Below are positions 10,981 to 64,000 of a DNA stretch of 64,000 nucleotides, piece by piece (the first letter of the stretch is position 1; the number at the start of each line of letters is the position of its first letter). The notes below the pieces were generated by a model. It had not been told where the DNA came from and did not search any database. It worked only from the letters and a program-made list of their open reading frames with translations. Origin of the DNA: Loxodes magnus (Eukaryota; Ciliophora; Karyorelictea; Loxodida; Loxodidae); the NCBI GenBank assembly GCA_946699065.1, contig CAMPDV010002115.1:21848-85847 (forward strand), in the 5' to 3' direction. Both the position numbers and the translations under genes were made by a program.

Positions 10981-11910
10981 TAAAAAAAATGGTAGAAGGT
11001 TTCAAGAAAGGCTTTTATACCACCTCCTAAAAAGGGGAGAGAAAGTAAGAACCCTCATCTCTAACTAACACGTCTTCTTCCTAGAAATAATCTTCTTCTC
11101 AAAACCTTCAAGAATAATAGACTCAACTAGGAACTTCCAGATCAACTTAAAAGATGTGACAAAAGCGCCAAAAGGTTACCTCGATGAAACCAACTGAAGA
11201 GGAAGGACCTAGAAAGGTGCTGGAGACGCAAGAAGCAGCAGCCGTGCTAGAGTTTGCGATGCCACAGTTCCAGGAAGAACAGGCATAAATTTTAGTCGCA
11301 TTCTCTGACCTGAAGGAGGAAGTAAAGAGGCTACGATTAGAGAATAGAGCTCTAAAAAATCAAGTTACTGAGCTCAAGGAATGGAAAGAAAGCTTCTGGG
11401 AAGTCTACGATCGAGAGCAAAACACTTTCTTCAGAGAAATGAGATTGCTACAGCAGAGAACAACTGTGCTTGAAGAGAACAGCAAGTAGCAATAGTAGAC
11501 AATTCAAGATCCAATGGACATAGAAGGAGCTATTAATTTACCGAGGAGTCCAGACAAGAAATGAATTAGGAATAAACCAAGATGTTTTGTATGCAAACAA
11601 ACTGGACATAAATATAGACAATGTTAGAAATTGAAATTAATTAAATAATAGTACTGGAATAGAAAATAATAAGAAAAATAATAGTACTAATATTAGGATA
11701 AGATTAGACGAGAATTCTGTAACTAATTTTATCCGTCAGGAGGTCAAATCTACAAACCGAAGTGGTATACAATCTAAGACGACTGAAGAAAGAGTCCTGA
11801 AGGGAGCTGGTTCCAGCCAGGTTATCAAACTGGTCCTGTGAACACGAGGTTGAAAGCCCTCCAAGTTCCCTAAACTCCAATTTAAACTTTTTAATTTAAT
11901 TTTAATTTTG
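10981..11910 (+). mobile_element. ORF1-only knuckle retroposon, element 1 (complete)
   Basis: The insert is bounded by a 15-16 bp target-site duplication, ATTATTTGTTGGTTA at 10965-10980 and 11911-11926 (one mismatch). It begins with an A run and the family 5' motif ATGGTAGAAGGTTTCAAG and holds one ORF. It lies about 190 bp after the WD40 gene. Confidence 0.8.
10989..11873 (+). CDS. Coiled-coil CCHC zinc-knuckle protein of element 1
   Basis: One unbroken frame of 294 codons runs from ATG 10989 to TAA 11871, or further if that TAA is read as Q. The N-terminal peptide MVEGFKKGFYTTS is shared with other elements and, slightly changed, with the LINE ORF1. A Q/S-rich linker is followed by a coiled coil (LKEEVKRLRLENRALKNQ, VTELKEWKESFWEVYDRE). 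Then comes a knuckle, CFVCKQTGHKYRQC (C-x2-C-x4-H-x4-C, 11583-11624), and a basic tail with aromatic PGYQTGPVN. Such proteins in LINEs bind RNA and form multimers through the coil; here that role is inferred. No RT or nuclease is encoded. The ORF looks intact, so the copy is young or still under constraint. GC content is well above the flanks. Confidence 0.75.
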
Positions 11911-12525
11911 ATTATTTGTTGGCTTAAAACAAAGGTCATTATAATAGATTATATTTATAGGTTTTTTAAATTGGTAAAAGTGTGTATATCAATTTATAAA
12001 TGGTCATGCTGAATTTATCCTGTAGTTTTTATTAAAAAATGGGTAATTAAAATTATCTTGTCTTTTATTTAATCCAAAATTTATTTGGATGATTGATTTA
12101 TTTTTTAAGTTTCATAAAAAATTTTAGGATATATAATATTTTTAAGTCTGTTTTCTTTTTATCAGAGTTGTGCAATAAAAAAACATTTTTGGATTGAACT
12201 GGAAAAGTTATTATTTAATTATTTATTTTAATTTTATTTTGCATTTAAAATTGCTTTTATTCAGTGAATTATTTTTGTGTATTTATATTTTAAATTAAGT
12301 TTTATTTGGAATTTTTAATTTTAAGTTTACGCTTTTTCTTTTATTATTATTTTCCGAGGGTTTTTTTGATAAAATCATCTTAAATTTTGTATTTTTATGT
12401 ATATTGTAATATTTTTACGATTATAAAATTATTTTTACGATGGTAAAATTATTATATCATTCTTTCTATAATTTTTCTGAATATTAAAGCCTGAAAATGC
12501 AAAATAAAAAAATTTTTTTTTTAGT
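11911..12525. other. AT-rich spacer, nothing recognised
   Basis: T-rich sequence between two retroposons. No domain, repeat or RNA gene was recognised. Confidence 0.4.
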
Positions 12526-13372
12526 AAAAAAAAATGGAAATGGAATAGAATATTCGACTATCTAAAAATTAGGCAAGAAACACAAGAAGAAGAGCTAACA
12601 AAGAACTAGAGAAGAGGTAGAAACCAATGGAACACTTATCAAGCTCCTCTTCAGAAGGCAAAGTAATGGTTGGACAAGTTAATGAGAGCACTTCGCTCTC
12701 AATTGAAATGGAAAAGATGAAAAAATTAATTTCTAAATATGAAGAAGAAACATATAATCAAGGAGAAAAAATTAGAGAGCTTATGAATAACATTGAGGAT
12801 CAAAATAACGAACTATTAATTCTTAGGAAATAGCTTATATAAAACAATATTGTGACAGAAAAATAGCTCTATACTCAGTCTTAAAATGATTTCAAACAAG
12901 GGGTAAACATGAGTATTGAAGTCCTCCCTTCTTAACCAAAAGATTAGGAAATAAATATAGAATAAAATGTTGATAAAAGTTTAATTAAAAGAATAGAACA
13001 AATAGAAAAATTAGTTTTGCCTTAGTTGAATAAAAAAAAATAGACAAAAAATTGTTGATGTTGTAGGTCGAAATATCACTTATTAAAAAATTTAAAAAAA
13101 TGATAAAAATGATAAAAATTGAAAAAAAGAGAAGAAATAAAAACATGAAGGATGTTAAACAAACTTTGAATAACCGACTCAGGAATTTATAAATAGAAAT
13201 TATTTAGTGGTAACATGGAAAATTCATTGTGGTAGCCACCCACATTCAAAAAAAGGCCGTGGTATACATCCACGTTAAAAAAAGGCGGAGCGAAATCGGT
13301 TGGAATCCCGAAGAACTCCAAAACTCTTAACATTTAGTTTACATTATTATTATTATTATTATAAAAAAAAAA
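12526..13372 (+). mobile_element. ORF1-only knuckle retroposon, element 2 (subfamily with ATT tail)
   Basis: It ends in an (ATT)n tail at 13343-13362, as do the elements at 26600, 33260 and, in reverse, 60213. The flanks carry similar A-runs (ATAAAAAAATT type), so a target-site duplication is likely but low in complexity. Its last 180 bp contain paired motifs (GTGGTAGCCACCC, CCGTGGTATACATCCACG) able to form hairpins. Confidence 0.7.
12534..13337 (+). CDS. Coiled-coil CCHC-like protein of element 2
   Basis: A single frame of 267 codons runs from ATG 12534 to TAG 13335. The start MEMEQNIRLSKNQARN is basic. A serine patch SSSSSEGKVMVG, also found in the elements at 60213 and 63300, precedes a coiled coil (MEKMKKLISKYEEETYNQGE, KIRELMNNIEDQNNELLIL). 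The knuckle is CWCCRSKYHLLKNL: two cysteines and the histidine are present, but the fourth ligand is L, whereas the relative at 63850 keeps C (CRYCQSNYHLLSHC). The tail includes LNKLWITDSGIYKQK, also conserved at 60400. Probably an RNA-binding ORF1-type protein. The final stop is ambiguous because TAG is normally Q here. Confidence 0.7.
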
Positions 13373-14766: not shown

Positions 14767-16802
14767 TCATCGATTCCATAATTCCTCTTTTTATAATTAA
14801 ATAGCTTTGTATATATATCTTAATTTATTTAAATTTTTTAAATTTATCGTTTTTTGTCTTAAAATTCTATTTTTTCTCATCTACTCTCCTTCTAGATTTC
14901 TCTCCCTTCCCTAGATATTCTCTTTTAAATCTGTACTAAAATATCTTACCTTTACTAACTTGTTCAATATGCTTTTTTCATACTTTCTTTAAATATTTCA
15001 CTTTCTCACATTTTTATTCCAACTACCTAATATTATTCACTTGTCATCACTACTTAGTGCACACTCCTTACTTCAGCTGTATGCCCCATTAACGTACATG
15101 CACATTCTCCTGTTTAGAAATCCCATATTTTTATTGTTTTATCTCCACTTCCTGATACTATAAAACTGTTGTTGCTCGACAATGTAGTTCCTCCTATTCA
15201 ACCTTAATGCCTGTTATTGTTCTTATACACTATCCAGTCTAAAAATTGCATATCTTAATCATCTTATCAGAACTTCCAGAAACGATTCATCTCTGGTCAC
15301 TTGATATTACTACAGAATTTACAGATTATGTATGTCCCTTCAGTGTACTCTTTAATTAGTTAGCTTGTAAATTTCATATCTTTATTGTATTATCTATACT
15401 TGTAGATATAATATAGTTGTTGTCACTTGAAATTACTACAGATAAAACTTGACTCGTATGCCCCTACAAGGAACTTTTTAATTAATTAGTTTTGAAATCC
15501 CAAATTTTGATCGTGTTATCATAACTACCAGAAACGATTCACTTCTGGTCATTTGTTAGAACTACTGAGTAAACAGAACTATTATGTCCATATAAAGTAC
15601 TCTTTAACTAACCAGACACTAAATCCCATATCTTTATAGTATTGTCATCACTTCCAGATATTATATAATTGCAGTCACTCGAAATAGATGCAGTTAAAAC
15701 AAAACCTGTATGTCCCTACAAAGTACTCTTTAATTAGGCACTATTAAAGTCCCATATTTTTATCGTATTATCATCGCTTACTGAAACAATTCATTTCTGG
15801 TCTCTAGATATAGTTACAGATAATATAGTTTTTGTATGTCCCTACATTATTTGATCTGTGTATAAAAATATACCTTAATCTTGAATTTCATTAAATTAAT
15901 TAATAGCTTTCTATTAATTATTTGCTGTTTTGTTTTCTATATAAATATTTTAAAATAAATACATTAAATTTAAGGCTCTTAAGAGTTTTTCCATTGCCTC
16001 TGAAATTTATATTAAACAAACTTCTGATTTTTATAAATATTCTTGATAGAATTCTTGATTCATCTACTTTAATCAGTCTCTTTCTCAGATTTATATATTT
16101 TAAAATTTCATTAACTAACTTGATAATAGTTATATCTAACTAATTAAATGTTTAATAAACTCTTTATGCTATTCTATCTATCTACGGTAATCTTATATCT
16201 TGTATCTTACATTTAAAGTTATTGCTTAATTAAAAATAATTTTAGTCGTAGTTAATTAAAACACTATAGGCCTGCTAAGCTTTTAATATTTAATTTTAAA
16301 CTATTTAAATTAGTTAGGTATATTCTATATTTGAAACATCATGTCATTTACTTTATTTCAATTAACCTTATAACTCCAGTAAGTTATTTATCTCCTTTTT
16401 TGTTGTTACTTAGTGACTTTATAGTTCTTCATATATTTTAGAACTATCTGTAAATAAATTAATTTCGAGGTCCTCTAGAAGTTTATTTACTATAGCCAGC
16501 TTTATCTTCTTCTATAACTCTTAACTTACTCTATTCTCTAATGATTTTAACTATACTATATTAGATTATATAAAGCTTTGCTTGATAGTATCTAACATCA
16601 GCTTATCACTTTATAGTTAAGTTGGGTGAGTTTTAGTATGAATTTTGCCGTTATTACCCATACATTAGATTTATTTAGAATTTAAGAACTAGTTATGAAT
16701 ACATTCGTAACACATTTAATGACCACATTCAAGTATCATAGGAGCCTTCACTTAGTCATCAAAATCTCCGTTACAAGCTTTACATTTGATGTTTACGGAC
16801 AT
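14767..16802 (-). CDS. RING finger - helical linker - WD40 protein, with frameshifts
   Basis: ATG 16802 (minus) begins MSVNIKCKACNGDFDDQ, then APMILECGHQMCYECIHNQF: a RING-type C-x2-C ... C-x-H-x2-C-x2-C. The last cysteine pair is incomplete (QCMGNN). A helical linker follows, then about seven WD40 repeats from 15845 down to about 15000, for example GHTKTILSVTISRDQKWIVS, DNTIKIWDFNSAQLKSTL and CNYIISGSDDNTIKIWDL. RING-WD40 proteins usually act as ubiquitin ligases that choose substrates through the propeller; the role here is inferred. The frame changes once in the linker (about 16080-16110), once between repeats 5 and 6 (about 15200) and once in the last repeat (about 15057). It may be a decaying gene or contain sequencing errors. 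The next in-frame TGA is at 14769. Confidence 0.75.
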
Positions 16803-25769: not shown

Positions 25770-26625
25770 TTACTAGTAAAAAAATTCAGAAGGTCTCAAG
25801 GAGGTTTTTTGCAGGTTCCTTAGATAAAGGAGCAAAAACCAGAGACTTCTAATTCTTCATCCATCACGGCTTCTTTAATAAAATAATAATCTTCTTAATC
25901 TTAATAACCTCCAATAATTGAAAATTTAAGAAAATCTTAAATAAAATAAGAACTTAAATAAGCATAAACAGAATAAAACTAATAATAAAATATTTATTTT
26001 CTTCCTAAACCAAGTAACTATAGGAAATAAGAGAATCCAAAAGCAATGCAAAAATAGACAAATGAAGAATAATTATTAATTGAAAGTCTTTTGAAATCAG
26101 TACGTATTCTGTAAGAAGAAGTAAAAATATTAAGATAAGAAAACAAAAAATTATTAGAAAAAGTTTAAATACTGAAGAAAGATTAGTCAAATAAGAAATC
26201 GAAGTATAGCAACTTGGTCAAAAAAGAATAGAGCCTCTAATCTAAGAAATAAAAATGGAAGTAGAAGATGATAGGCAAATAGAACCGACCAATATTAGAA
26301 GGATTCTCAAGAGATGTTACCTATGCTAATCAAGATTCCATAGATTAAAGAGTTGCAAGATATACAAGGAAAAGATGAAGAGAAACAGCGAAGAAGTCCG
26401 AAGAGAATTAACAAAAATTTACGTGACGATGGAAAGAAGAATTTACAGAAGAAGAATTTTCTATTCGAGTTCCAGAACTCCGAAAAAAACTGGACGACCC
26501 GAATTTTTATTTTAAGCATCCAGGAGCGATCACTAGATGTCAGTGGAAATGAGGCTGAAATACCTCATAGCCACAAACACTTTATAATTAAGTATATTAT
26601 TATTATTATTAAACCTTTTTGCTCT
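25770..26625 (+). mobile_element. ORF1-only knuckle retroposon, element 4 (ATT tail)
   Basis: The N-terminal part reads RSQGGFLQVP, recalling the family's GFYTTS peptide. A Q-rich linker and coiled coil follow (LLKSVRILQEEVKILRQENK). In another frame comes an intact knuckle CYLCQSRFHRLKSC (C-x2-C-x4-H-x4-C, about 26314-26355) and a basic tail (RRIYRRRIFYSSSRTPKK). The element ends in (ATT)n at 26603-26618. One frameshift separates coil and knuckle. Confidence 0.65.
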
Positions 26626-27331: not shown

Positions 27332-28274
27332 CTTATAAAAAAAATGGTGGAAGGTTTCAAATCAGGCTTCTATACTACCTCTTCCTAAGCCAAAAAGAAA
27401 GGGAGGAAGCAGGAAACCAAGACTTAATAATCTCCTCTATCTTAACCCTAATCCATACTGAACTAACGACCTGGAATATAACAAGAAGAGTGGAAGCTAG
27501 TATTGAAGACAGCCCATATAGATACTCCAATCTCAGCTTAGAAACTGAGAAAGCAGATGAAGTCTGCTCTCCACCAGGAGGTGACGGAATTCAATCCCTC
27601 TGGCCAGATGAGCATGGAATAACTCATCAGAGTAGTGCTAAATTTCTAGGAAGATGTTAGGAAACTCAAGAAAGACAATGAAAAATTAATGGAAAAGCTT
27701 GACCTAGCTCAAGGAATAGAGTCAAGACTTATGTCTTAAGAACGAGAATTGAGTGCTTTCTGGAATATATCGTAGGATTAAACTAGACTAATCCCAGAAT
27801 TAGCATTAAAAACAGACTTAATTGGACAACAGACTTTAGAGACTAGAAGAGAAACTAAATGAGCAGAAAGGCGACGCTATGTTGATTGAAGAAATTGACA
27901 AGAAATTGAAGAAGACCAAACCAATCAAGGTTGTAAAAAGATGCTATTATTGCGACTCGGAGCAATGCTTCTGAAGAAAATGCAAGGAAATCCTGAGCTT
28001 AAAGAACCTATACTGGGAAAAATAGAGAAAGAAACGCAGAAAAGAAAGGTTAGACAATTGCAGCAGAGGAGAAAAAAAGAAAGACTATGAATGACGGAAT
28101 TGGAACTATTTATAAGAAGAAACTTTCATGGAACTGAAGATGGAACTAGCGATAACAAGATCAAGTGGGTGTGAGAGGAGAAGCTTTTAAACTTTTTAAC
28201 TTAATCCCAGAGCAATCCGGTTATCGGCAGAAAGAGGTGAAATTCCTCCAAGATCGCCAAACTTAATATTAATC
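27332..28274 (+). mobile_element. ORF1-only knuckle retroposon, element 5 (perfect TSD)
   Basis: An exact 15-bp duplication, TATAATCATATTATA, flanks the element (27317-27331 and 28275-28289). ATG 27344 begins MVEGFKSGFYTTSSQAKKK. The coil region KQMKSALHQEVTEFNPSGQ, then MSMEQLIRVVLNFQEDVRKL, is nearly identical to the element at 44964. After one shift near 27840 comes LEEKLNEQKGDAMLIEEID and the knuckle CYYCDSEQCFWRKC, in which the usual histidine is a cysteine (C-x2-C-x4-C-x4-C). The 3' end forms a GGC ... GCC hairpin (about 28216-28258). Confidence 0.8.
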
Positions 28275-30954: not shown

Positions 30955-31720
30955 TTAACCACCAAATCGGCAAAGAAAAGAGAAGAAGGTGTGAATCTCA
31001 AAGAAAAAAGTAATTTTTCTCCTCTAGTCCTAGAAGAATACGACTATGTCTTCTAGAGCTCCATAAGAATAAGAACAGTCATTCAAGAAGCAATAAATAT
31101 CTGCTCTGATAGCAGAGAGTTCTTCTTATCCAGTTCCAGATATTAGGAATAGCTTTTCTTTAGCTTAGATGAGCTGCAACAAGAAATTTATTTACTCAAG
31201 TCTGGAAATTCTAAGGACAGAGTAGGTTTGCCGACTTAAATTAGGAACTTAAATTTGTTAAGATTGATCTGAAGAGGGAAGTCTAGAGATTATTGGTTGA
31301 GCTCAACTTGACCAAGAAGAATCATAATATTAGAGAAGCATTCTGGAGCAAGGGATTGGCTTCCTTGTGGTACAAAAAAAGACTTTAAGGTATCTCCCTA
31401 CTTACTCTAGCCTATCCGCTAGAGATTGAAATAAGAGTATCATCCCTATTAGCTAAACCAATCTGCGAGCAAAGTAAGGTGTCGAAAAAGCAATAATTCA
31501 ATTGTGGTAGTGGATGGCATCTTTACCGAAACTGTAAGAGATTTCTCTCTCAATAAAGAGATTATTGGAGATAATTAGAGGTAATTAGAGGCACAGAAAA
31601 TATATCGCTAAGATAGTAAAGGAAAAACAAAATTATAAATTATACCGAAGTTAACTCCTCTTCCACGACTCTTCTAGGAGAATTTATAGGTAGAACTTGG
31701 ATTATAATAAAAAGGTAAAA
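30955..31720 (+). mobile_element. ORF1-only knuckle retroposon, element 6
   Basis: The coding-like part reads LNQELKFVKIDLKREVQRLL, then VELNLTKKNHNIREAFWSKG, and a partial knuckle NCGSGWHLYRNC (about 31498-31533) whose first cysteine is missing. A basic tail follows (RDYWRQLEVIRG). It lies between the duplicated SINE block and element 7. No clear target-site duplication was found. Confidence 0.6.
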
Positions 31721-32390: not shown

Positions 32391-33274
32391 AACTAAAATC
32401 AAGCCAGGCTTTTTACCAAATTAAATTAGAAACGTAAAAATTAACAAGAATCTGAAGAGAAAAAGTAGAAACAATCAAAACCGAGGAAGAGAATGTCCAT
32501 GTCTCCAAAGTAATAAGAAACTCCAATTGACTAAGATCTTTCAGAAATTAATATTAGTGAGTATCAAAATAGCATTGAATAACTTACAGAATTAGTAAAA
32601 ATTTTGCTTAACGAGGTTAAAAAGCTTAAGGAGTAAAATCAAATATTGATAGAGAATCGTGGAAACGTAGAAGACAGATTAATTAAATAAGAAAGAGAAA
32701 TAGATGCCTATTGAAATATTCAAACTGACTGCTCTTAGCAAATATAGTAAATGATATTAGACTCATAATCATAATTAATTAAATAAACAGAACGTGCATA
32801 ATAGCCAGAACCAATTACGATATTGGGGCAAAATCAAATTTAAGAATAGTTTTAAAACAATTAGCAAGGTTGTCAAATGGAAATTGAAAAAAGACAAAAA
32901 ATTTATCAGAATACAATGAAGAGTAGAAAGTGCTATTACTGTAAGAAAAAAGGACACTAATATAAATAGTGTAGAAATTTCTATGTATTCAAGAATGAAT
33001 TTAGTTAGAGAGCTAAGAGACTGACAGAAAGAATTTATATTACTAAGAGAAGATCTATTTATCTAATTAAAGAGACAAGCGCCAAAAGAATACTAGCAAG
33101 GTAGTTGGATGAAAGATGGAGAGAGAAGAGAAATACAAGATTTAAGATAAGAAAAAATAGAAATGAAACAATAAACTTTTCTTTTTATCCACCAGACTAT
33201 TCTGGCTGGAAAGAGGGAAATTGGTGAAAATCCAAGAAGACCTCTAAACAATTGTATCGATTATTATTATTATA
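32391..33274 (+). mobile_element. ORF1-only knuckle retroposon, element 7
   Basis: The 5' end TCAAGCCAGGCTTTTTACC echoes the family motif that encodes FKxGFYTT. The 3' end is an (ATT)n tail (33258-33272). Flanking AAAACCATTAAAA and AAAAAGCATTAAAA look like an aged target-site duplication; the equivalent flank of copy 3 at about 42010-42030 is uninterrupted. The insertion lies about 90 bp upstream of the ATG of TPR-pseudokinase copy 2. Confidence 0.7.
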
Positions 33275-36179: not shown

Positions 36180-39100
36180 ATAAAATTTTATTTATTCCAG
36201 TCTTCCATCAAATATATATCCAATCAATAATAAAGCAAAAACAAACATTTAGACTAGATCGATAAAATTGAATGCTTTCTCATCATAATTCAGTAAGTAA
36301 TTATGATATCTCATACTTAAATACTGCTAAAGTTATTTTTATTCTAGTTACTTTGCAAACTCATTTAAGAGCTTACTTATGAACCATTTTTCTAAAATTA
36401 AATTATGGAGGTATAGTTTTGATGAAACAAAGATCTTTACATTATCAAGAAAATATTTAATTGCAATCATCATCTAACTATACCTATCTTGCTAGCAGTT
36501 TATAGAACTTTAAGCTTAAAAATAAAAGGAAGACTTTAAGTATATAAATGACTTTGCATGTAAATCTATTCAAATTAAACTTTTAACAAATGCATGTATG
36601 GAAAAATCCTTGATTTGGAAATAATAACTAAGAAATAAAAATGATGAAATGCTATGTTGAAGCATTCAATCATTTGAATAATAGATATGTCTGTGGAATT
36701 TAATCTTGCTTTTCTCTTGAATAGGTGGCATCGATAATTTTTTCTAACTTATATTATCCTTAATTTAAAACTAATATACTAATCCAATAAATACCTATCC
36801 AAAGCCTGCCTTTATATTAATGAAACTACTCAAATTTTATAGCGCTGAATAATTTTATTTTGAATGTGTCAGTAGAAAACTCCCATAGAGCAAGACACTA
36901 TTATCTTTGTATCTAGTATGTGAGAAAATTTCTATCATCTTTGTGCTTTTTTATATAAGTGTGCATGATAAAATAACTATAGCTACTTTTTTATTTTTTC
37001 TAATTTCAATTTTGTTGATGATATCCTTTTGTAGTTTTAACTATCATGAGCTAGTTTCTTTATAAATTGAAATTTGTTGGAGTAATTTCTTTAGAAATAG
37101 TTTTTCTAAGCAATAAAATTAGGTTTTATCCTTATATCAAGCTTGCTAATATCTTTTTAGTGTCACTCTCAATCTATCTTCGGTAATAATCACTCTGTTA
37201 ACATAATGTACAACTTGAAGACTCACTTGAGGTATATAAAAGGAAGTAATAAAGAGAAAGACAAACTTAGTTACTTAAAACAAAAGATAAAATTTGATTT
37301 TAGAAGCTTCAGACACCATTTATAAGTTCCTAGAAAGGATTTTAAGTTATTATATCTGATGAAAAGATGAAAATTAAAGATATCAGCCTGATAATATTTT
37401 TTACTCTATTCTGATCTCTTCAGTGACAGGAAATAAAAAGAAGAAGGAGAGAGATCTGAGAGTGAAAAGATATAACAGACTGTACTTATTGTTGTTTCTA
37501 AAAATAGTAAGAAGAAAAAAGGGAATAAAATTTCCTGCTAGATGTAAATACTAGGATTATAATAGTAAATATAATAAATAGAATGCATGAAAAATAACTT
37601 TTTAATTGTAATTAATTTATTTTTTTAAATTAAATATCTTAAAAATCTTAAAATTGAAAAAAACCCGGGAATCTAAACCTTGAATTCTAACCTTAAAGAT
37701 CAATCTTAAGTCTCAGTTAACTAACAAGAACCAAGAATTCAAAAAAAGATGAATCTACTCCTGTTATAGGATTGGGAAATACGGAATTTCCTAGCAAACT
37801 GAAAAAGCTTGAGAAACCCAACGAGCAAGATATTATTTAGCTTTATTCATTAATAGAGAAAATGAATACCGAAATATAGATCCTGAAGGTGGAGAAAACT
37901 TGAATCTTCGGCTTCTTTTGTAAGATAGAAAAAAAGGAAGATCAAGACTTGGTAAGTAAAGTTTAGTTTTAAATTGAAGCCTTAACTTCCTAATTTGAAC
38001 TATTAGAAAAAAAACCTAGAAGCAAATCAATAGAAAATTAAAGAAAAAATTCGATTACCAATAAAAAAAAACTAACTTCAATCAGAAAAGATGGGAAATT
38101 GAAAAAATGTAAACATAATAAAAATTTTAATTCAAGCCCTTAATAAAACGTTGCTATTGTTGTCAAAAGTCTGGACATTTTTGGAGGTAATGTCCGAAGT
38201 GAAGAAGAGTGCTTGAGCAGCACCGAAATAATTTGGAACATCGAGGAGGCTATATTGTAACTACTTTGGTGAGTATTTACAGAAAGAAGCTGATATTAGA
38301 TGATTCAAGCGTGACACTAATCAAACAGGATCTTGGTAATTAATAGTAACAGAATAAATAGCCTTAAAAGGACAACAATGACCTTAGAATTTGTTTAGAG
38401 AAGCTGGAGAAAAATTACAAGAAGATGGAAGAACAATTCTATTAGCTTATTGAAGAGAAAGAAGAATTATCTCAGTTTGAAATTGATTCAGATGAAGACA
38501 TGTACAGTTGAGTATTGAATATAAAAAATTTTATTTGTCTTTAATTTGAGGAGCATTTCCTCTAATTAAAGATGACCCTAACTCTTATAGTTAAAATTAA
38601 TTAATTAAATATCTTAAGTAAAAAGACTAATATCAAGCCAATTCTTTATTTCTCTTTATAAACCTAATAGTGTCTTTATTAGCTTATTATGTTATTAAGT
38701 ATTTTTTATTTTACTGATTTAAAAAGATTTAAATTGTAAATGGCAAATCTGCTGAGGTTTAGAACTATGAAGTAATTATGGAGAAAACAAGGTAAAAATA
38801 ACTGGCTTTCAGTCCAATATTTCTTGTAATGTAATTTGACTTCTTATAGGTTTTTTTATATATATTTAAATCTAAAATTTAAAGGAATTCTCTTTAATAG
38901 AAATCTTCAAGGTTTAATTATAAAATACTAAAAATTTTTATTATTCTATATTATGAGTTAGGATTGATTCTTCGATTTTTTATACCACAGTTATTGAGAC
39001 AAATCACGCTACTTTAGCAAACCCTTAAACTATGATTAAAGTCAAAAATTGGTTTAAATGAATTGATTAAGCTTCTTAAACTTGAAGCTTTTTGAAGATA

Positions 39101-44963: not shown

Positions 44964-45906
44964 GAAAAAAAAATGGGTAGAAGGTTTCAAAAAGGGCTTC
45001 TATTACCACCTCTTCTTTAGCCAAAAAATGAAGAGAAGAAGCAGGAAACCATTTCTTAGCAGTCTTCTTTTTCATAACCCTAACTTTTTCTTACTTAATA
45101 ACCTGGAAATTAACAAGAGTAACGAAAGCAAGACCTAAAGGCAATCCATATGGAAACTCCAACCTCAAATGAGAAACCAAGGAAGCAGATGAAGTCTGCT
45201 TTACACCAGGAGGTATCGGAGTTCAACCCTTCTGGCCAGATGAGCATGGAATAGCTCATAAAAGTGGTACTAAACCTCCAGGAAGAGGTTAAAAAGCTTC
45301 GTAAGGAGAACACGAAGTTGACAGAGCAGATCTCTCATGGAATTTAAGATACACTTGATCTTAGAATTGGCCAATTAGGAAAGGGAAATTGATGCTTTAT
45401 GAAAGTACCAACAAGAATAAAATAGTTAGACAAAATCTTAGATACAATAAATTCAGAGCTAAAATACACAATTGGAATTTAAAATTTCAAGTCAACAAAA
45501 AGTTGAATAAATTGAAAAGGAACCTAACTAAAACTGCAAAATGGAGATTGAGGAAATAGGAGGAGGTAAGTCAAACGGAAGAACAGCAAGGAAGATTAGA
45601 TTTTTAAAGAAATGCTACTTTTGTTGCTAACAAGGTCACTTATACAAATAGTGCAAGAAATTTTTTCAATTCAAGAAAAAATACTGAATTAAGGAAAAAA
45701 AGGAAGAGAAATGCTGTTTTGCAATTGGGAAGGAGGGAATCTATAAGAGAAAATTGAATCAAGATACACTGAGACTGATTTTAACAAGACCTATTAGAAG
45801 AAGACGACAAGGAAATAAATCAAATGGAGGAGAGATAAAACTTATAAACTTATTTTAAGTGGCAGATGTGAAATCTACTGCTAAACAATATTAATTAAAT
45901 AACAAT
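44964..45906 (+). mobile_element. ORF1-only knuckle retroposon, element 10 (recent, empty site at 1560)
   Basis: Flanked by TTGGTTTAAAAG at 44952-44963 and 45907-45918. Block copy 1 has this sequence once (about 1560-1572), so the site before insertion is known. The 5' motif and coil (KQMKSALHQEVSEFNPSGQM) match element 5. The knuckle is CYFCCQQGHLYKQC (about 45613-45654). The start region carries two extra bases relative to element 5, so the first codons are out of frame. The 3' end has a GTGGC-type motif like element 3. Confidence 0.85.
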
Positions 45907-48990: not shown

Positions 48991-48997
48991 CTAATAA

Positions 48998-49075
48998 TAA
49001 AATAAAATAAATAAATAAATTGTATTATAGAGCGCGTAGCACTCTTGTTGGTGCACAGCTCTTTAAATTAATTTT
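48998..49075 (-). repeat. SINE family A tail, cut by the LINE
   Basis: Only the minus-strand 3' tail and hairpin (49010-49063) remain. The SINE body seen at the same place in block copy 1 (4736-5015) is replaced by the 5' end of the LINE at 49083. Confidence 0.75.
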
Positions 49076-49089
49076 TTTAATGAAAAAAA

Positions 49090-50290
49090 ATGGTTAGCTT
49101 CAAGAAGGGTTTTTATACCACCTCCTCAGAGTAGGAGAGAAAACCTGAAGCACTTTCCTTTTACCACATCTTTGCTTTAATTATTCCAACCTTCTTTATT
49201 ATGCATGGAAACCAGACTAATAATGCAAGACCTCAGACTACGCAGGACCAAACTAACTGACCGAACGAACACGAAATAATAGAACGTATAATAGAAAAAA
49301 AATAGCAATATACCCATGATTGGTCGAACTGTATTAAAAGAAGGAGCACGAAATAAGAAAGGAATGTGGCAAAAAAGTAAACAACCTAAGTAATAATTTA
49401 ACAAAATAATGAACAACTCATTTCAGCCAACGTCTCTGAAGAATAAATGTAAAGAGTCTAATAAATGCCTATGATGATTTATCAGAAATGGTGGCCGCAA
49501 TTTACTTTAACCATTACTTGGAAAACACTGATTTAGTAGAGAAAAAGGTCAAAGACTAGAAGTTATGACAAGTGTTTAGAAATCAAATATGGAAGGATTA
49601 CGGACAAGCAGTGGCGAAGTTCATAGTGAAATAAAACGGAATTTTATACGTGGTATTTAACAATGAAGAAAGATACTAACATTTCACTTAATTCAGGGAA
49701 TGAACGTTCAAAGGAGTTAGAATTCCTATCTAAGCTAGAAACTAATTGGAATATTTTGACATTCATAACTACCCAATTTACTTCATAATTAACGAATACT
49801 CAAATATGAAGGAAGTAATGGAAATAATAAGATAATATGGAAAATCAAGAGGAGAGATATAACATGCATATCCAAACACAATAATGCTAACAGGGAGCAG
49901 TGTAGTCTACCTAGATTTAAAGGATGTAGACGAAGCAAAGAGGATACCAGAAGTAATAGATTTGAATGGAAACAAAATTAAGAATATAACACCCAGTAAA
50001 TTTTATCTGCTGCCTATGTAAAGTGAAAGGGCACACAGACCAGCAATGCAGAAGGGTAGAAGCAGCAAAAAGGAAAAAGCTACATTCAAGAGAATTAGAG
50101 ATGCTTGAAGGAGAAGTTATTTTAACAATAAGCAAACCAGATTTTGAAGCAAATCAAGCAAATAAGAGGATAATTGGAAAGAATAAATGATTATAGAGGA
50201 ATCAAGGGAAGAAGAGAAGGAAATAAAATGAGGAGAATAGAAAAATAATTAAAACAACTAAACAATTAAATAATAAAAAGTTTTTTACGC
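49090..50290 (+). CDS. LINE ORF1 protein (nucleic-acid-binding, CCHC knuckle)
   Basis: ATG 49090 begins MVSFKKGFYTTSSEQERK, the same N-terminal peptide as the knuckle elements. A second ATG at 49201 gives MHGNQTNNARPQTTQ. The middle part reads QNGILYVVFNNEERYQHF and YLDLKDVDEAKRIPEVIDLN, which alternate like strands and helices of the RNA-binding domains of LINE ORF1 proteins. A knuckle CLCKVKGHTDQQC sits near 50013-50053 and is followed by a basic tail. Middle and knuckle are in different frames in this copy. The protein should coat the LINE RNA; this role is inferred from the family. The order (globular domain, knuckle, basic tail) differs from the small elements, which have a coiled coil instead of the globular part. 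Confidence 0.75.
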
Positions 50291-50629
50291 TAAAAGAATA
50301 AATCAAAATTATTTTTCATCAAAATGGAATTGGACATATGTAAGACAGAGGGATAGAGAAATGTTCAAATAATTAAATAAAATAGAAACAATCAACTAAA
50401 TAATAAGATATACCATAAAACAAATTAGAGAAAAGGATAGGATAGGTGATGGTAAAAACGCTAAACCCTAACAAAAGAAATAAGAAATAAACAAAATAGT
50501 ATAATGGAGTATGTCAAGAAAAACGTAAATAAAGGAAAAAATCAAAAAGAAATAGAACAAACTCAAAAAGAAAAAGAATAAGATGCAAGATAAAAGTGAG
50601 AAGAAAGAAGTAAATTGAAGCAAACTTCA

Positions 50630-53600
50630 ATGAGAATGTACTATGCTAAGAAACCGATAAACAAAAATGAACAATTATCCGACTTCAACTAATAGGAAAA
50701 GGAAAAAGAAGAAGATTAGAATAGATAAGAAGAAAAGGTGGAGAAGGAAGATGAATAAAAAGAAGAATAAGGTGAAGAGGAAGTAGAGGGAATGAGTGTA
50801 AAAAAAGATTAAGAATAAGTCATAAAAATAGGGACAGCAAATGTTAGGGGAGTAAGAAGTGCAAAAGAGGCATTAGCCAAATTCATGACTCAAAAAATTA
50901 TCCACATAATGGCAATATAAGAAATTTAGATTGAAGACTAAAAAGATATGTGTAATATAGCAGGATATAAAAACTTAATAAATGTGGGATCAAAAAAAGG
51001 AAAAGGAGTAGTATTCTATATTAGAAACGACATATGTAAGGAGATCAGAGAGATAGAATGAAGTAAACCAAATGACGCTCTTTGGAGGAGCGAGAGTAAT
51101 GGCAATAGAAATAATGAAATAATTAGCAGTAATAAATATCTACGCTCCTGTTGCAAATAACAACGAACAGTATGAGCCTTTCTATAATTTAGTGAATGAA
51201 TTTAAACTATAAGCAATAGAAAAAGGACTTAATATAATGATAATAGGAGACTGAAATGCGCACATAGAAAAATGACTGCCAAAGAAAACAAACTCAGCAG
51301 GGAAGAGAATGGCACAGTTTATGGAACAGAATAATTTAATATGCCTAGACCCAACTGAAATAGGTACCTTTATTCACTAAAACAATTAGTATAAAATAGA
51401 TTACTTTTTAATCGAAGAGAGAATGAGAGAAAAGGTGCTAAAGAGTGATTTTTATTACTCATACGTAATAGGTGACCATAGGGCCTGGTATTATATAGGT
51501 AAAGATGGGTAAAGAAGTAAGAAAGCCATAAAAGATAGCAAAAATAAACTACCTACTATTAAAGAAAAAAGAGATATAAGAAAAATTGAAAGATTTATAC
51601 AAGAAAATCTCTAAGAAGAAGAAATTGATAACCTAAACGGCACATAGACTTATAAATGATGAAAGAAAAAAGATATAAGAAGGAGTTTAAATAGTATGTG
51701 GAAAATTCAAAACATAAAACTCTAAGATATATAAATATTCAGAAACAACAAAATAGTGTAATAAAATCTTAGAAAATGCAGCAAACAATTAAAATAAAGG
51801 GTAAAGAACAGAGAACAAATAAATGAAAATCAATAAATTGAGAATCAAAGAGAATACCAAAGAGTAAGATAAGAATACATTTAATCAAGAAAAAAAGATA
51901 AAAGAAACTAACTAAACCTATTTATGGACAATGTAAATAAAGCAAGTCTAACAGATATGTGGAAGAAACTAAAAAGCTTACTTAATAGAAAAAATAATTA
52001 ATGAGTACCCTTATTAAAAGAGGATGTTAATACTTTCAGGGATGAATGGTAGAAACTGTATGAAGATGGCGATAATACGTTACCAACTAAATTCTTAAGC
52101 AAGAGATAAATAGTGGTAAACGAATATGAAATTTGAGAAATCATCAACTAATTGGCGAAATGAAAAGCAGCAGGACCTGATGAAATACAAGTAGGCACAA
52201 TATTAGCAGGCGGAAAAAACTAACAGAAGTAACATGTAAAATGATAGTTAAGATGATTTAAGAGGGAGTAATACCTTAAGAGATGAAATAATAATACATA
52301 ATATTAATATACAAAAAAGGAGGACAGATGAACCCGATGAATTATAGACCAATCTCTTTACTGAATCATGCTTTAAAAATAGTAGATGCATGAATTTTCT
52401 AGCAACTATAAGGATATCTGCATAATGATGGAAGCGAATATTAATATGGCTTTAAAAAAGGAAAATCATGCTCACTATAAATTTTCAACCTAAGAACAGT
52501 ATAGGAATGATCAATACGGAACAAAAAAAGATGTTTTCGTAATATTTGTTGACATTAAAAAAGCGTACGACTCGGTGCAAAGAAAAGATATATGATAAAT
52601 CCTAAACGATCTAAAAGTACCGGAATAGATAATTAAACTCCTAGCAAACTTCTACTGTGAAGAAGAAATTAAACTTAAAATCAATGAATAAATAGCAAAA
52701 TCATTCTCGACAAATAAAGGACTAAAACAGGGAAGCATAACGTCGCCAAGACTATTTAACTTAATAATAGCAAGACTTCTCCATAGCTTGGAAGATTAAA
52801 AGCTAGGAATTACGATAGACTTTAAAAACTAAGAGGGATGAAGACAAGAAATATATGCAGGATGTTTTGCATATGCAGATGACCTAGCCTTAATAAGTGA
52901 ATGAGAATAATTAGAGAAAGTAATCAAAAATTTAACCTCATGGGCAGAAAAATACAAACTGGAAATTGCAGATAAAAAAAAATGAATGATATGAAAAACA
53001 GCAGAAAATAGAAACTGAGAAAATATAGGCAATACTATTAAGGTGGGAAATTTAAGAATCGAAAGAGTAACGTCCTTCTAGTACCTAGGGCATATAATAG
53101 GAAGAGACCATCAGCTTTGAAAAACACATGGAGAACAGACTAGAAGCAGCATAAAAGATGTAAACATGAATACTGGGTAAAATAACAATGAATAAGGGAT
53201 TAACATCATATAACGCAGGAATAATGATAAAAACGTTCGTAAGCTCAGTATTCAGCTATGGGACAGAAGTTATCCCCATATTGTGAATAATTTGTAGGAA
53301 AATAAGTGATGGAACAATTAGAAATAATATAGAGAAGATCTTTACGAGCAATCATAGATGCCCCTTTCTAAGTGTAAAACGAGATGCTAGAATACGAGTT
53401 ACAGTTTATGAAATTTAAACATTACCTATGGCAGAAAACGCTGAGATTAAGAGGCAGACTAATAGGTAACTAAGGAAAAACAGTAGATGGATTAATGTTC
53501 GACCTAAGTAAAGAAGAGAACTTTATTTTTGAACAATACTGCACGACAATAAAATTAGAATTAAAAATTGAAGACAAAAATATATTTATAGATGATGGTA

Positions 53601-54422
53601 ATAATAATCAAAAAGGAAAGAAAAACATTAATCGTGCAATTTGAGAACATAGAGTATACATAGAAGATAGAGAAAAAATGGAGTAAATGATAACAACTCT
53701 ACAGTATAGAAAAACATGATTTGATGAATATGTAGTAGGACCACCCAACTACCTGAGATACAATAAAAATAGAAAAGAAAAAATATGCTACATATTTAGA
53801 ATAAGAACGAGATGTAATGGGAGCCAGGATTGTTTAAAAGAAAGACACCTAGTTGCGACAAGCAAATTCCCTTTCTGTAATGATGCAAGAGAAAACGAAA
53901 GGCATATCATAGAAAAATGCTCAGAATACAAAGAAAGTAGATAAATATGTATTAGAAAGTTAAGAACAATAGGAGTAGAAAGATAAGGAATGGAACTATT
54001 TGATATAATATGAGGTACGGCAAAATCGAAAAATTAATTAGAACCTAAGAAGAGTAAAAAAGAGCTAAAACTGACTTGACAATAAAAGATTATATCAAAA
54101 ACATATTAGAAAAAAGAAAAAAAGGATATTAGAAAAGAAAATTGAATGAAAAAAAGAAATAGGAAAATATTATAGAGCAGGAAAAGGATAATTTTTATGA
54201 GTTTATAAAAGCTTGATTAAGAAGAAAATAATTAGAAACGAAAATTAGCAAATTATGTAAAAAAAAATAATGGACGCTTGTAACAAAGAATCAATAAAAC
54301 ATAGATAGATAGAAGACAGAAGAACAAGAGATATTGAAGAAGAAAATGATGAAGATATGGAACTAATAAGAGAAAAATTTTTATTACCTGAAGGCTTACT
54401 TGAAGAAATAGACGTGTTTTGA
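50630..54422 (+). CDS. LINE ORF2 protein (AP endonuclease and reverse transcriptase)
   Basis: From about 50630 (MRMYYAKKPINKNEQ) an acidic leader precedes the endonuclease. Its motifs are IGTANVRGVRS, MAIQEIQI, IIGDWNAH (about 51240-51263) and YVIGDHRAW (about 51462-51490). RT follows: YKKGGQMNPMNYRPISLLN, motif A FVDIKKAYDSV (about 52540-52575), motif B KQGSITSPRLFN (about 52724-52760) and motif C FAYADDLALIS (about 52866-52900), with catalytic DD intact. The C-terminal part holds a Cys/His pattern, CNGSQDC then FCNDARENERHIIEKC (53815-53925). The ORF ends at TGA 54420, about 10 bp before the tail hairpin. Frame changes occur near 51075, 52215, 52530 and 53110, among others. It nicks and primes on target DNA in the family's known mechanism. 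The clade (L1, Tx1 or R1/Jockey group) is left open. Confidence 0.88.
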
Positions 54423-54544
54423 ACATTTATTAAAGAGCTGCGCACCAACGAGGTGCTACGCGCTCTATAATCAAATTTATTTATTTATATCTTTTGAAAT
54501 AATAGTAATAAATTATTATTTTCTTTTTAATCTTCTTTTATTAT

Positions 54545-60106: not shown

Positions 60107-62436
60107 ATGTCTGAAGCATAATAATATTTTAGATAAGGAAATTAATTTTTAGAAGAAGAAAATTATACAGAAGCTATCGAATATTTCAACATTGCTATTA
60201 TATTAGATCCCATAATAATAATAAATAATATACTTAAAGTTAGTAGAGTTTTGCATTCTCTGGAATTGCAACCAGTTCCTGCGGACAGTTTTTTTAACGT
60301 GGGGTGTGATCCACGACCTTTTTATTAAGTGGAAGGTTACCACTGTAACCGTTCAAGTGGTCTTGCAAAAAGCTTTTATTTGTAGATCCCTGTTGGAGTT
60401 ATTCATAGTTTATTGAGTTGTCCTCCATGTTCTTTTCTGCTCTTATTCGTTTATTTTCTTTCATTATCAACAGTTTTTAAAATATGTTGATTTGATTTGC
60501 AACATCAGCAAAGTTTGTATTATTGTCTTTATTTCGTTCTTTTTTATGATAATTTATTTTCTATATTTTCTAATCTTTTAATGAAACTAATAGCAATCAT
60601 TTCTTTTTCTGGATTCAATTCTGTTTTTAATTTCTATTGGTATTTTTTCTATTTCCATTTTTGTGTCATATTAAAGTTTTATTGTGACTAAGTTCAGAGT
60701 TGTTCTTCCGTTATCAAATTGCTTTGAATGAGCTGGTCTTCTGAGTATTAATAATTCGTTGTTTTAATCCTCTATGCTATTCATTAATTCCCTTTATTTT
60801 TTCTCCTTAGTTATAAGCTTTTTCTTCATACTTTGAAATTAATTTTTACATTTGATCTAGTTTAATTTAAAGTTTTTGATCAGATTCGTTCTTAGGTTAT
60901 CTTATCTCTATAGATCCTACCATCACTTTACCTTCTGATGACGAACTTGACTCCTCTCGTTGCTATTGTTTTTTCTAAATTTCTTTTGCCGCTTTTCTCT
61001 TTAGGTTTTTAAGTTAATTCTTTGAGAGTCGGAAGAGATTAATCCATTTTTTTTTATATTAGATCCCAATGATGCAGCTACTTATTGCAATAAGGAATCG
61101 CTTTGAGCGATTTAGGTAAACATTGCGAAGCATTTAGAGCTACGATTTAGCTCTGAAACTTGATCCTAATATTGCAGCTACTCATTGCAATAAAGGAAAT
61201 GCACTTAAAAATTTAGGTAAACTCGTCGAAGCAATCTAGAGCTACGATTAGCTCTGAAACTAGATCCTAATGATGCAGTTACTCATTGCAATAAAGGTCT
61301 TTGTCCTTCAAGCTTTAAATCAAAATCAAGAAGCACTTGAATCTTTTCGAAAAGCAAAAAAATTAAATCCAAATTTAGAAATTCCCTAATTAGCAGTTAC
61401 AAGTGAAATAAGCTAAGTAAACAAAGTGGAGAATAGAATAAAAGAAGAAGATTTAAGGAAGTTCTTATAGTAAAAAGATAGTAATAATGAGCTAAAAATA
61501 TGGAACTATAGAGATTTAGTTCCTAACAATGAATTTCTAGAAGAATTGTAGAAATTGGCTGATGATGAATTCGGAACGACTTATCTGGCTAGTATCTAAG
61601 AAGCATGTACGGGTTTTAAAGTATTTAACTAGTAGAACGATAAAATAATAGATTAGTTCTGATTTGAATGTAAAGAACTAATTTTAATAAATAGCTTAAG
61701 TGTTTTAAAAACTTATAGGATTTGCTATCGATACTTAAGAAGTAGCTCTTTTAACTGATTTTTAGAATAAAGGAAGTTTATTCTAAATTATTTAGACAAT
61801 GTAGTTATTCAAAAATAGCCTCTCTCGATACTATAAGAAGCTTAACTTACTTAGTTAATAGCAGAAGGTTTGTAGGCTATTCCACAATAGAAACTTAATT
61901 CATAAAGAAATAAAATCTCTTAATATTCTGTTAGATAATTAAGATTGTCCTAAAATACTAACTTTTGGATTATTTAATTAAGATAACTGATTAAGAGCAA
62001 TAGAATAGAAAGGTGAACATCAATGAATGGCTCCTTAATAATTTGAAAAGAGAGTGAGTAAAAAAAGTGATATCTGATCTTTAGGTTGTATAGGAGTAGA
62101 AATATTCAATGAAGGATTTCTTTATCCATTTTAAGATTCTTAGTTAAAGTAAATAGTTATATCGATAAAATGATTCCTATTGTTTTCAAGCGAAATATAA
62201 GAAGAACCCTTATTAACTGATTTATTCTACAGATGTTTAGCTTTCGATGAGAATATAAGACCAGATATAGATACTTTTATAAGTTAGTTAGAGCAAATAA
62301 AATAGAAGTGAAGACCATATGAAGATATAAGTCACTAACCCTATGAGAATAGCTGAAAAAAACAAATAAAGTATATCAGAATAATTAAGAGAAATGAAGA
62401 AGAAGAGTTAAAGACAAAAACTATTATAACTTAAAA
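60107..62436 (+). pseudogene. TPR-pseudokinase, copy 4, interrupted by element 12
   Basis: ATG 60107 begins MSEAQQYFRQGNQFLEEENY and reaches the first TPR (YTEAIEYFNIAIILDP), where element 12 is inserted (60213-61053). After it only about three TPR units remain (61055-61350), against 12-15 in copies 2 and 3, so internal units were lost. The kinase-like part is nearly complete with HKE (61901-61909) and TFG (61961-61969); the APE glutamate codon is changed (WMAPQQF). Several single-base indels are present. The insertion and frame breaks make it a likely pseudogene. The end has no TGA; copies 1 and 3 stop at the equivalent of about 62430. Confidence 0.8.
60213..61053 (-). mobile_element. ORF1-only knuckle retroposon, element 12 (in TPR gene)
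   Basis: Exact 15-bp target-site duplication TTATATTAGATCCCA at 60198-60212 and 61054-61068, within the ILDP codons of the first TPR. The minus-strand ORF resembles element 2: SSSSEGKVMVG, then LISKYEEKAYNQGEKIRELM, IEDQNNELLILR, a CWCCKSNQHILK knuckle and LNKLWIT. The (ATT)n tail lies at 60213-60225. The target-site duplication proves insertion after the TPR gene was formed. Confidence 0.9.
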
Positions 62437-62508
62437 TTTTATTATTATTCTTATATTACTATTATCTTTCTAATTAGGCTTTATTTATTAACAAATTTAA
62501 AAAAAAAT

Positions 62509-62878
62509 AGGGTGGAAAGCCCTTTCCTTCGGATGCTGCTTGGAGGCCCAGCAAAGCAACTAAAAAATGAGCGCGGACGGGAGGAGTAAATCGGAGGAAG
62601 AGAAGCCAATAACAAGAGAAGGAAGATTCAACAAGTTGGAGAACCTCTGAATGCCAGGAGGGAAACTTTCTTCATCATAGTTGGGGAAGATGTACCCATA
62701 TTCGCATATTGCATTCTTTGCTTTGGAAGGAAAAATTATAGAGACGTGCTGCAGGAAGAGAGAAACAAGTGATATAGAGACCAATAAAAAAAAATTTCGA
62801 TATTAAATAAAATTTATTTTAAAGGAACTGTGCACCAACGAGAGTGCTACGCGCTCTATAATCTAATTTATTTATTTA
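62509..62878 (+). repeat. SINE family A, copy 3 (empty sites known)
   Basis: It begins AGGGTGGAAAGCCC and contains a patch related to the family-B monomer (TTCATCATAGTTGGGGAAG). It ends with the hairpin tail CTGTGCACC ... GTGCTACGCGCTC and ATTTATTTATT. The flanks repeat TTTATTTATTAACAA (62480-62494) and TTTATTTATTTAACAA (to 62882). Copies 1 and 3 of the TPR-pseudokinase flank have TTTATTACTCACAAG without the insert. Confidence 0.85.
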
Positions 62879-62879
62879 A

Positions 62880-63299
62880 CAAGATATTATTGATATAGGC
62901 ATCAATTAATCAAAATTAATATTAAAACCTAATATTATGATTATTTTAAATGTTTATCAAGCTCGTTTAATCTACAGATATGCATGTCGCCTTCTATTTC
63001 AATATTAAAGAATGAATTAAATTTCTAACTACTTTATGAACTTATTTAGGAGTATTTTTGTAACTAATTTACTAAAATTTCGGTATTTTGAATAAATTAG
63101 ATTTAAATAATAATTGCTATAGTATCAAAAACACTTTAAATTTTTAAAATTACCTAATTTGCTAGAAACTAAGAATTAATTTTTGATTATATGATTAAAG
63201 GATTAGTTTGAGTCTTAAATAAGACTTTATAAGCAAAATTATTAATTTTGATTAAATGATTTATTAATTACTATTTTATAGTAACATTATACATAAATG
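62880..63299. other. 3' flank of TPR-pseudokinase copy 4
   Basis: Partly matches 1200-1510 and 44600-44900, more diverged than those two are from each other. No gene seen. Confidence 0.5.
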
Positions 63300-64000
63300 G
63301 ATATTTAAGAGAAAATGGCAATAACAAGATTTATCTCTCTAAGATAAGAAAAGAAATTAAGGAAAGCAAGTGACTAATGAGGAGCTAAAAAAGTAGACAG
63401 AAACGAAAGTCTAGTTCTTCTTCAGAGGGAAAAATAATGTTCTATCTGACTGAAATAAGTTAATCCTGGAACTCAAAATAACAAATTACTCTAAAATTAA
63501 ATTGAACTAATAAAAGCAAAAATTACAAAGTATGAGCAAACTTTCTATAATCAAGGAGAAATAATCCGGGGGCTAATGAACTGCATAGAAGATCAAAATA
63601 ATGAATTGTTAATTCTTAAAAGTTAACTGATTAAAACGGTTTAGTAACAGAAAATTAACTTTATGAATGTCTTAATCCAATTTCAAATAATCACAAAGAA
63701 TGATTATAGAAGCAAATCTCCATTAACAACAGCAATAAGAAAAGCTAAGACTTGAACAAATTAATTCAAACCTAAGCTAAAGAATTGAGATATTAGAAAG
63801 AAAGATTTATCCAAAAAAGAAAGTAGAGAAGCAATATAAAAATTGTCGATACTGTTAATCTAATTATCACTTATTAAGTCATTGCAAAGAATGAAAGTTA
63901 CTCTAGCACAATGAAGAGCAAAGAACCTGAAGAAATTTAAATAAACTATGAATAACTGAATGAGGCGTTTTATAAATAAAAAATTAATCATAAGAAAACA
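63300..64000 (+). mobile_element. ORF1-only knuckle retroposon, element 13 (runs off window)
   Basis: Relative of elements 2 and 12: KSSSSSEGKIMF, a coil region, and an intact knuckle CRYCQSNYHLLSHC (about 63845-63886) followed by KEWKLLQHNEEQRTWRNLNK and LWITEW. It interrupts the sequence after ACATTATACATA that continues unbroken in the flank of copy 1 (about 1485-1510). The 3' end is beyond the window. Confidence 0.7.

Follow-up and report, generated by a model that had tools for sequence, protein, structure and literature searches.

How does a retroposon that encodes no reverse transcriptase (RT) come to keep a gene of its own, when most non-autonomous retroposons keep none? The question is raised by a stretch of 64,000 nucleotides from the karyorelictean ciliate Loxodes magnus (assembly GCA_946699065.1, contig CAMPDV010002115.1, positions 21,848 to 85,847 of the forward strand), called the window in the following. 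An initial annotation, made from the letters alone, described about 13 elements of 0.8–1 kb that code only for a coiled-coil and zinc-knuckle protein and share their 5′ end with an autonomous long interspersed nuclear element (LINE) at 49083. At least seven families of RT-less retroposons, named E1 to E7 and 0.83–0.95 kb long each, are indeed present (Table 1), but about ten copies rather than 13 are supported. The sole coding part is an open reading frame (ORF) for a coiled-coil protein, in most cases with one CCHC knuckle, and neither endonuclease nor RT is found inside the unit. The E elements are very probably non-autonomous retroposons without long terminal repeats (non-LTR type) of the solo-ORF1 kind; their fixed ends, their target-site duplications and their constrained ORF distinguish them from LINEs deleted at the 3′ side.

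The seven window stretches served as DNA queries against the whole Loxodes magnus assembly (705,730,643 bases, 7843 contigs), with 40 candidates scored per query, and all counts are therefore lower bounds. Unscored first-look candidates, which are not copy numbers, amounted to 1731 for E1, 4037 for E2, 511 for E3, 4799 for E4, 1523 for E5, 2074 for E6 and 1318 for E7. All 40 scored matches of E1 (window copy counted) are 97–100 % identical, and scored copies at other places show 89–99 % identity across all families, for which reason the families look young and recently active. As the window is part of an extensive duplicated region, some scored rows represent the same place with its flanks, namely 16 of 40 for each of E3, E5 and E7 and 6 of 40 for E6 by full-length matching, and 5 of 40 for E1 as judged by flank.

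Table 1 Features of the window (positions within the 64,000 nucleotides)
Feature	Position	Strand	Description
E1 element	10982..11906	+	ORF MVEGFKKGFYTTS..., coiled coil, CCHC, 3′ hairpin; frame open
E1 3′ hairpin core	11846..11861	+	GAGG-TTGAAAGC-CCTC
E6 element, first copy	12526..13361	+	MEMEQNIRLSK..., coiled coil, (ATT)n tail; frame open; knuckle without last Cys
E7 element	25777..26611	+	coiled coil, CCHC, hairpin with CTGAAATA loop, (ATT)n tail; copy frameshifted
E2 element	27337..28258	+	MVEGFKSGFYTTSS..., coiled coil; three frame-shifting indels; knuckle altered here, with CCHC in several further copies of E2
Possible E-type fragment near knuckle	31473..31655	+	weak profile match (E 0.0016); no full element defined
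E3 element	32395..33274	+	coiled coil, CCHC, (ATT)n tail; diverged head; frame open
E5 element	37650..38602	+	coiled coil, CCHC, 3′ hairpin GAGGA..TCCTC; frameshifted; head of another type
E4 element	44965..45902	+	relative of E2; CCHC; copy frameshifted
E6, second copy	about 60212..60867	−	
E6, third copy	63310..64000	+	complete CCHC; extends past window end
LINE A	49083..54488	+	head, ORF1 with CCHC at 50008, endonuclease, RT, 3′ hairpin, (TTTA)n; copy frameshifted
LINE A 5′ head	49083..49142	+	homologous to E1 head
LINE A tail	54430..54488	+	also on SINE-like repeats; none seen on E elements
SINE-like repeats with LINE A tail	20431–20913, 57073–57563, 62505–62876	+	
SINE-like repeats with LINE A tail	4681–5208, 30389–30940	−	

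Defined ends are the first line of evidence. The queries for E3, E6 and E7 had flanks on both sides and that for E5 had a 5′ flank only. For E6, all 34 matches that lie beyond the local duplication begin at 35–50 and finish at 871–893 of the 981-base query. In the case of E3, 21 of 24 rows start at 123–136 and all 24 finish at 1008–1027 of 1031; for E7 the corresponding figures are 19 of 24 (142–159) and 23 of 24 (983–994 of 1041), and 22 of 24 rows of E5 start at 11–18. The queries for E1, E2 and E4 were almost without flank, so that their rows show full-length copies and not ends, which were set by flanks, target-site duplications and an empty site. Full-length members are many: 35 of 35 E1 rows span 2–11 to 919–934 of 937, 39 of 40 E4 rows span 1–5 to 930–939 of 939, and of 40 E2 rows 33 are full length, six have one internal deletion and one is partial.

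The target-site duplications, given as 13–16 bp in the initial annotation, are about 12–20 bp long at the E1 loci (30 loci, equal to 18 places by flank grouping), with one unclear case (L038). When scored, 18 of 19 E1 sequences reach a match score of at least 12, compared with 7 of 380 mismatched flank pairs; since L018 and L028 are one place, this corresponds to 17 of 18 places. A score of 11 is reached by 9 of 11 E2 sequences and by 3 of 220 mismatched flanks. Furthermore, the window itself holds empty sites of E4 (at about 1557–1571) and of E5 (near 54938–54953, minus strand), and across the junction the joined flanks match the other copy of the duplicated stretch over 597 columns (92 %) for E4 and 583 columns (79 %) for E5.

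The second line of evidence is the encoded protein. In the window 334 ORFs of at least 120 amino acids exist under genetic code table 6 and a single one under table 1, and hence open frames prove little and coding has to be judged from motif, selection and frame. The knuckle motif CX2CX4HX4C occurs seven times in the window, always on the plus strand and once within the LINE, whereas 60 order-1 simulations gave a mean of 0.03 and a maximum of 1. The CCHC lies in the second half of the protein in the window copies of E1, E3, E4, E5 and E7, in several other E2 copies and in the E6 copy at 63 kb, and a further basic stretch follows the knuckle. The proteins of E1, E2 and E3 have the same layout and align across coiled coil and knuckle. 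A structure model of E1, computed from the single sequence, contains a helix at residues 74–171 with a predicted local distance difference test score (pLDDT) of 94–98 at residues 101–160. A profile of three E proteins matches the knuckles of Ty3 Gag and nucleocapsid (E 0.026–0.076), which is weak but coherent; phmmer, with the protein of E1 as the single query and other E1 loci excluded, matched only E1 itself.

Frames of RT in the genome read through TAA, TAG and TGA, which fits the karyorelict code, where UGA is reported as tryptophan or stop (PMC11441545). The true stop of the E ORFs is accordingly uncertain, because UGA can be read as tryptophan. For E2 the stop may be the TGA at codon 250, beyond which the sequence shows no clear constraint.

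Selection on the ORF is the third line. Between the E2 consensus and E4 the ratio of nonsynonymous to synonymous change (omega) is 0.27 over 243 codons, as against 1.05 and 1.10 in the shifted frames. For E6 the copy at 12.5 kb gives 0.25 and 0.30 with the copies at 60 and 63 kb, the shifted frames ranging from 0.77 to 1.27. Purifying selection, named in the initial annotation as a way to check the idea, is thus seen between diverged copies, that is for E2 against E4 and for E6, while it is weak within E1 and E2. Within-family counts were made on 23 E1 sequences, left from 30 loci after removal of seven with flanks equal to another, and on 13 E2 sequences, of which 11 served for the duplications. 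In the E1 set five sequences still come from the place of the window copy itself and L018 and L028 from a single other place, and the E2 set includes the same-place pairs L077/L080 and L081/L082. The frame is kept in 19 of 23 E1 sequences, with at least one such sequence in 17 of 18 places, and in 4 of 13 E2 sequences.

A number of results speak against the solo-ORF1 interpretation. Private changes of E1 are neutral, with a ratio of nonsynonymous to synonymous changes (N/S) of 2.72 where 2.87 is expected, as is to be expected of what insertion would leave afterwards. Shared E1 changes are only mildly constrained (N/S 1.80 versus 2.87, some sequences being of one place), and E2 copies give 2.29 and 2.47 (2.47 for shared changes) against an expected 2.99, again with some sequences of the same place. 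The comparison of the E2 consensus with the window copy at 27 kb is ambiguous (omega 0.46; shifted frames 0.42 and 1.39). Codons 250–318 show no clear constraint, with omega 1.21 between the E2 consensus and the window copy and 0.76 relative to E4. In Pfam the knuckle is found below threshold for E1 and E3 and not at all for E2. Moreover, of the seven copies that define the families in the window only those of E1, E3 and E6 are open, those of E2, E4, E5 and E7 being frameshifted.

One candidate source of the enzyme that copies the E elements is the LINE of the window, called LINE A. It is a real element, whose 5′ end is set by flanks, since those of L070 and L073 show no relation before the A-run that precedes the first ATG; endonuclease and RT domains are recognised in its relative L073, and eight loci (L001–L008) are one place with flanks 95–100 % alike. 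That LINE A specifically mobilises E1, E2 and E4 through a common 5′ head is possible but rather unlikely. The 5′ ends of LINE A and E1 are homologous over 60 nt (L002 versus the E1 consensus; none of 1000 shuffles reaches the score), while LINE and E2 share only 20 nt at the DNA level (reached by 1 of 1000 shuffles). The head peptide MVxGFKxGFYTTS is present in E1, E2 and E4, in the latter two at the peptide level, and was not seen in E3, E5, E6 and E7. The initial statement of a common 5′ end consequently holds for three of the seven families. Between the E1 and E2 heads five differences are synonymous and two nonsynonymous (Sd 5, Nd 2; omega 0.06, 13 codons), so that the peptide seems to be kept.

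However, reverse transcription begins at the 3′ end, so that a common 5′ head is more readily linked to promoter or translation than to the RT. At the 3′ side E1, E2, E3 and E7 end in a hairpin with TGAAA in its loop and E5 in one with the loop GCATT; an (ATT)n tail follows in E3, E6 and E7, and the other families are AT-rich and less clear. LINE A shares with LINE H, another RT lineage, a hairpin unlike the E type and adds (TTTA)n, whereas a third lineage, LINE B, has a third hairpin. The last 110 nt are more stable than shuffles in E2, E3, E5 and E7 (z −2.5 to −3.0), but not clearly so in E1 (−0.7 for the consensus, −1.5 for the window copy), E4 (0.6) and E6 (0.3), a further point against the interpretation favoured here; the LINEs give −1.3 (A) and −2.2 (B and H). 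Shorter 3′ stretches, picked by eye, mostly score better. The tail of LINE A is borne instead by unrelated bodies, namely short repeats at 20.4, 57.1, 30.4–30.9 and 62.5 kb that resemble short interspersed nuclear elements (SINEs), and these are likely tail-mimicking partners of LINE A. A partnership of the E elements with LINE A is unsupported, as their 3′ ends differ from its tail.

The SINE-like repeats apparently form two families by eye, ending in GAGCTGCGCACC...GCGCTCTATAATC and (TTTA)n, and seemingly share a central stretch around GGGG...GTACCCATAAT. Terminal inverted repeats at the LINE (49007–49066 and 54430–54488) were considered and rejected, as the left arm belongs to a SINE-like repeat on the minus strand beside the LINE and forms the tail of that repeat.

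The frame of the head deserves separate mention. In E1 and E2 it is in frame with the protein. In nine LINE A copies (L002–L008, L070, L073), representing three insertion places, ORF1 starts in another frame than the one that encodes the head peptide MVSFKKGFYTTSSE. The window copy (L001) has a shift that puts both in one frame, and L072 has a decayed head without a match. The LINE A head is thereby an upstream overlapping ORF, with possible use by re-initiation, frameshifting or splicing of a very short intron.

A simpler origin would be that the E elements are 3′-deleted or truncated copies of a LINE whose own ORF1 is the E protein, in the manner of TAHRE and HeT-A, and this is improbable. 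There is ample room for such a LINE, given 3403 RT candidates in the genome, of which 150 were scored, and five loci of three RT lineages that were read upstream through the RT (A-like L070, L072 and L073; B, L069; H, L071). By RT protein identity H is at about 67 % and B at about 53 % to the A-like group. These loci carry a different ORF1: four of the five show the CCHC of LINE ORF1, and L071 aligns with LINE ORF1 in spite of a degenerate knuckle. The ORF1 of L073 is 30, 42 and 59 % identical to those of B, H and another A-like locus, respectively. Against the E profile, ORF1 of the LINE lineages read aligns over only 42 columns at the knuckle (E 0.008, probability 4.9 %), in accordance with the earlier view that the protein core is unlike that of the LINE. 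No recognisable ORF1 was found at L088 and L089, and an RRM-like middle domain of LINE ORF1 proved unsupported, being modelled at a mean pLDDT of 37.7.

Longer relatives with an RT behind the same ORF, which the initial annotation had named as fatal to its idea, were not found among the RT loci that could be read, a part of all such loci. Within 1.5 kb on either side of 30 E1 loci (18 places) no endonuclease–RT lies downstream of E1 on the same strand. Pieces of the LINE A body in these flanks are on the opposite strand, and same-strand pieces are short LINE tails (at one place 416 bp past E1, and at L035 upstream of it), apart from a 218-bp piece from the ORF1 part of LINE B, 217 bp past E1 at L035. 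At C1156 an E4-like remnant (about 69 % like E4) stands upstream of an RT. The LINE there starts abruptly at LINE A position 2009 and is 96–99 % identical to most available LINE A copies, and the locus was rejected as a joined unit, being a younger, 5′-truncated LINE insertion behind an old remnant. In addition, none of 110 E copies lies within 8 kb of 72 distinct RT places, a comparison of low power; it covered 110 of 280 scored E places (30 of 40 for E1, including five of the window's own place, 25 of 40 for E2, 31 of 40 for E4, 24 of 40 for E5 and none of E3, E6 and E7) and 72 distinct among 150 RT places. Finally, each family has one 3′ end, with the duplication next to it where tested, and not the varied breakpoints of truncated copies.

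Two arrangements were noted beside this search. E1 is inserted in opposite-strand LINE A at two places (L023/L032 and L016–L018/L027/L028), and such nesting could date the families. At L087 (minus strand) the 3′ end of a LINE H is directly followed by another short element, whose start (MSPKKQSTKNQQEIEQ...) is coiled-coil-like and whose knuckle is broken.

An origin as simple SINE-like repeats or as host-gene retrocopies, with frames open only through the near-stopless code, would agree with the many long table 6 ORFs, the frameshifted window copies and the weak constraint among E1 or E2 copies. It is most improbable in view of the in-frame omega of 0.25–0.30 between diverged copies, a CCHC count far above chance and the coiled-coil and knuckle layout common to E1, E2 and E3. 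Because of the constrained ORF the E elements differ from SINEs, which are driven by a Pol III promoter and have no coding gene.

For solo-ORF1 retroposons the following route can be proposed. The element RNA, starting a few bases before the ATG, would be translated, and the protein would multimerise via its coiled coil and bind its own RNA with the knuckle and the basic stretch. The resulting RNA–protein particle would be brought to the endonuclease–RT of a LINE, which may then copy the element RNA from its 3′ end by target-primed reverse transcription. If each element requires a protein that acts on the very RNA encoding it, the retention of the ORF would be explained. More speculative, and on present evidence doubtful, is the extension that the E elements are protein-based parasites capturing the endonuclease–RT of LINEs with a different ORF1, that they form an old ciliate lineage reaching from karyorelicts to Paramecium, and that the head was exchanged with LINE A. 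Each family would then possess its own RNA-packaging protein in place of the LINE 3′ tail that is copied by the SINE-like repeats.

Elements of a similar kind are known from other organisms. HeT-A resembles the E elements in encoding only a Gag-like protein and no RT and in being of non-LTR type. In contrast, HeT-A goes to chromosome ends, whereas the E copies examined lie inside contigs, have target-site duplications and are far shorter. HAL1 of mammals is likewise ORF1-only. The likeness to it is one of concept, a LINE part that retains ORF1, but descent of the E protein from the LINE ORF1s read is not recognisable, the knuckle being the only part that aligns. HAL1 itself is described as a shorter version of L1 (PMC8535693). 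Trypanosomatids have short elements with the 5′ end of an autonomous LINE; among the E elements such an end was seen in DNA for E1 and in peptide for E2 and E4, and not in E3, E5, E6 and E7. The trypanosomatid retroposons are truncated or degenerate versions defined by the common 5′ end. NARTc, RIME and SIDER, for instance, carry the Pr77 5′ end of L1Tc/ingi (PMC4748587). The E elements differ in keeping a constrained ORF and in having the head in three of seven families only.

The closest counterpart are the seven solo-ORF1 elements (A–G) reported in 2017 from Paramecium tetraurelia, which have ORF1 only, ending in a zinc finger, and for which the authors assume mobilisation in trans (PMC5405496). 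Both sets share the ciliate host, a single ORF1 between both ends, a zinc finger in the second half and the lack of an RT. A short 3′ repeat occurs in three of the seven Paramecium elements (PMC5405496); in Loxodes (ATT)n is seen in E3, E6 and E7, the other families being less clear. The E elements are distinguished by at least seven families in 64 kb, by evidence of purifying selection, by a head common to a LINE in another frame, and by a knuckle followed by a basic stretch; the word ‘synonymous’ is absent from the main text of the Paramecium report (PMC5405496). For L. magnus a macronuclear (MAC) assembly of 706 Mb with two complete LINE families of about 3000 copies each has been described (PMC11441545), in whose main text no word starting with ‘ORF1’, ‘gag’, ‘zinc’ or ‘coiled’ occurs. 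The same source gives 504 repeats as overlapping with monoallelic indels. In the open-licence literature nothing further was found on the E elements among the listed reports on Loxodes magnus retrotransposons, nor any other ciliate report of solo-ORF1 or ORF1-only elements. The initial remark that such parasites are little described in ciliates is therefore fair, with the Paramecium elements as precedent. The kind is known but barely described, and in the open-licence literature searched there appears to be no earlier report of the Loxodes families, of the selection on them or of the out-of-frame head.

The surroundings of the elements are repetitive as well. Diverged copies of a large duplicated unit cover 1–4765 and 43388–49090 of the window and occur also at 33.3–36.2 and 61.0–62.5 kb, with more copies in several contigs on both strands. 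The unit holds a tRNA-Gly(tcc) gene (at 1595 and 45942) and 102-bp tandem repeats; at gathering score, Rfam finds in the window only the two tRNA-Gly genes, outside the seven family-defining elements. Tandem repeats of 126 bp at 10056–10668 and 15236–15865 are about 66–69 % alike and mutually inverted.

For the biology of Loxodes the essential point is that several families have each kept one gene, which is under constraint in the two cases compared between diverged copies. Two questions thereby become open to testing: what an RT-less element needs an RNA-binding protein of its own for, and whether a foreign RT can be recruited by that protein alone. Unclassified repeats account for 757 thousand copies and 366 Mb of the Loxodes MAC assembly (PMC11441545), and the E elements may make up some of these. 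Together with the report from Paramecium, the findings suggest that solo-ORF1 elements may be widespread in ciliates.

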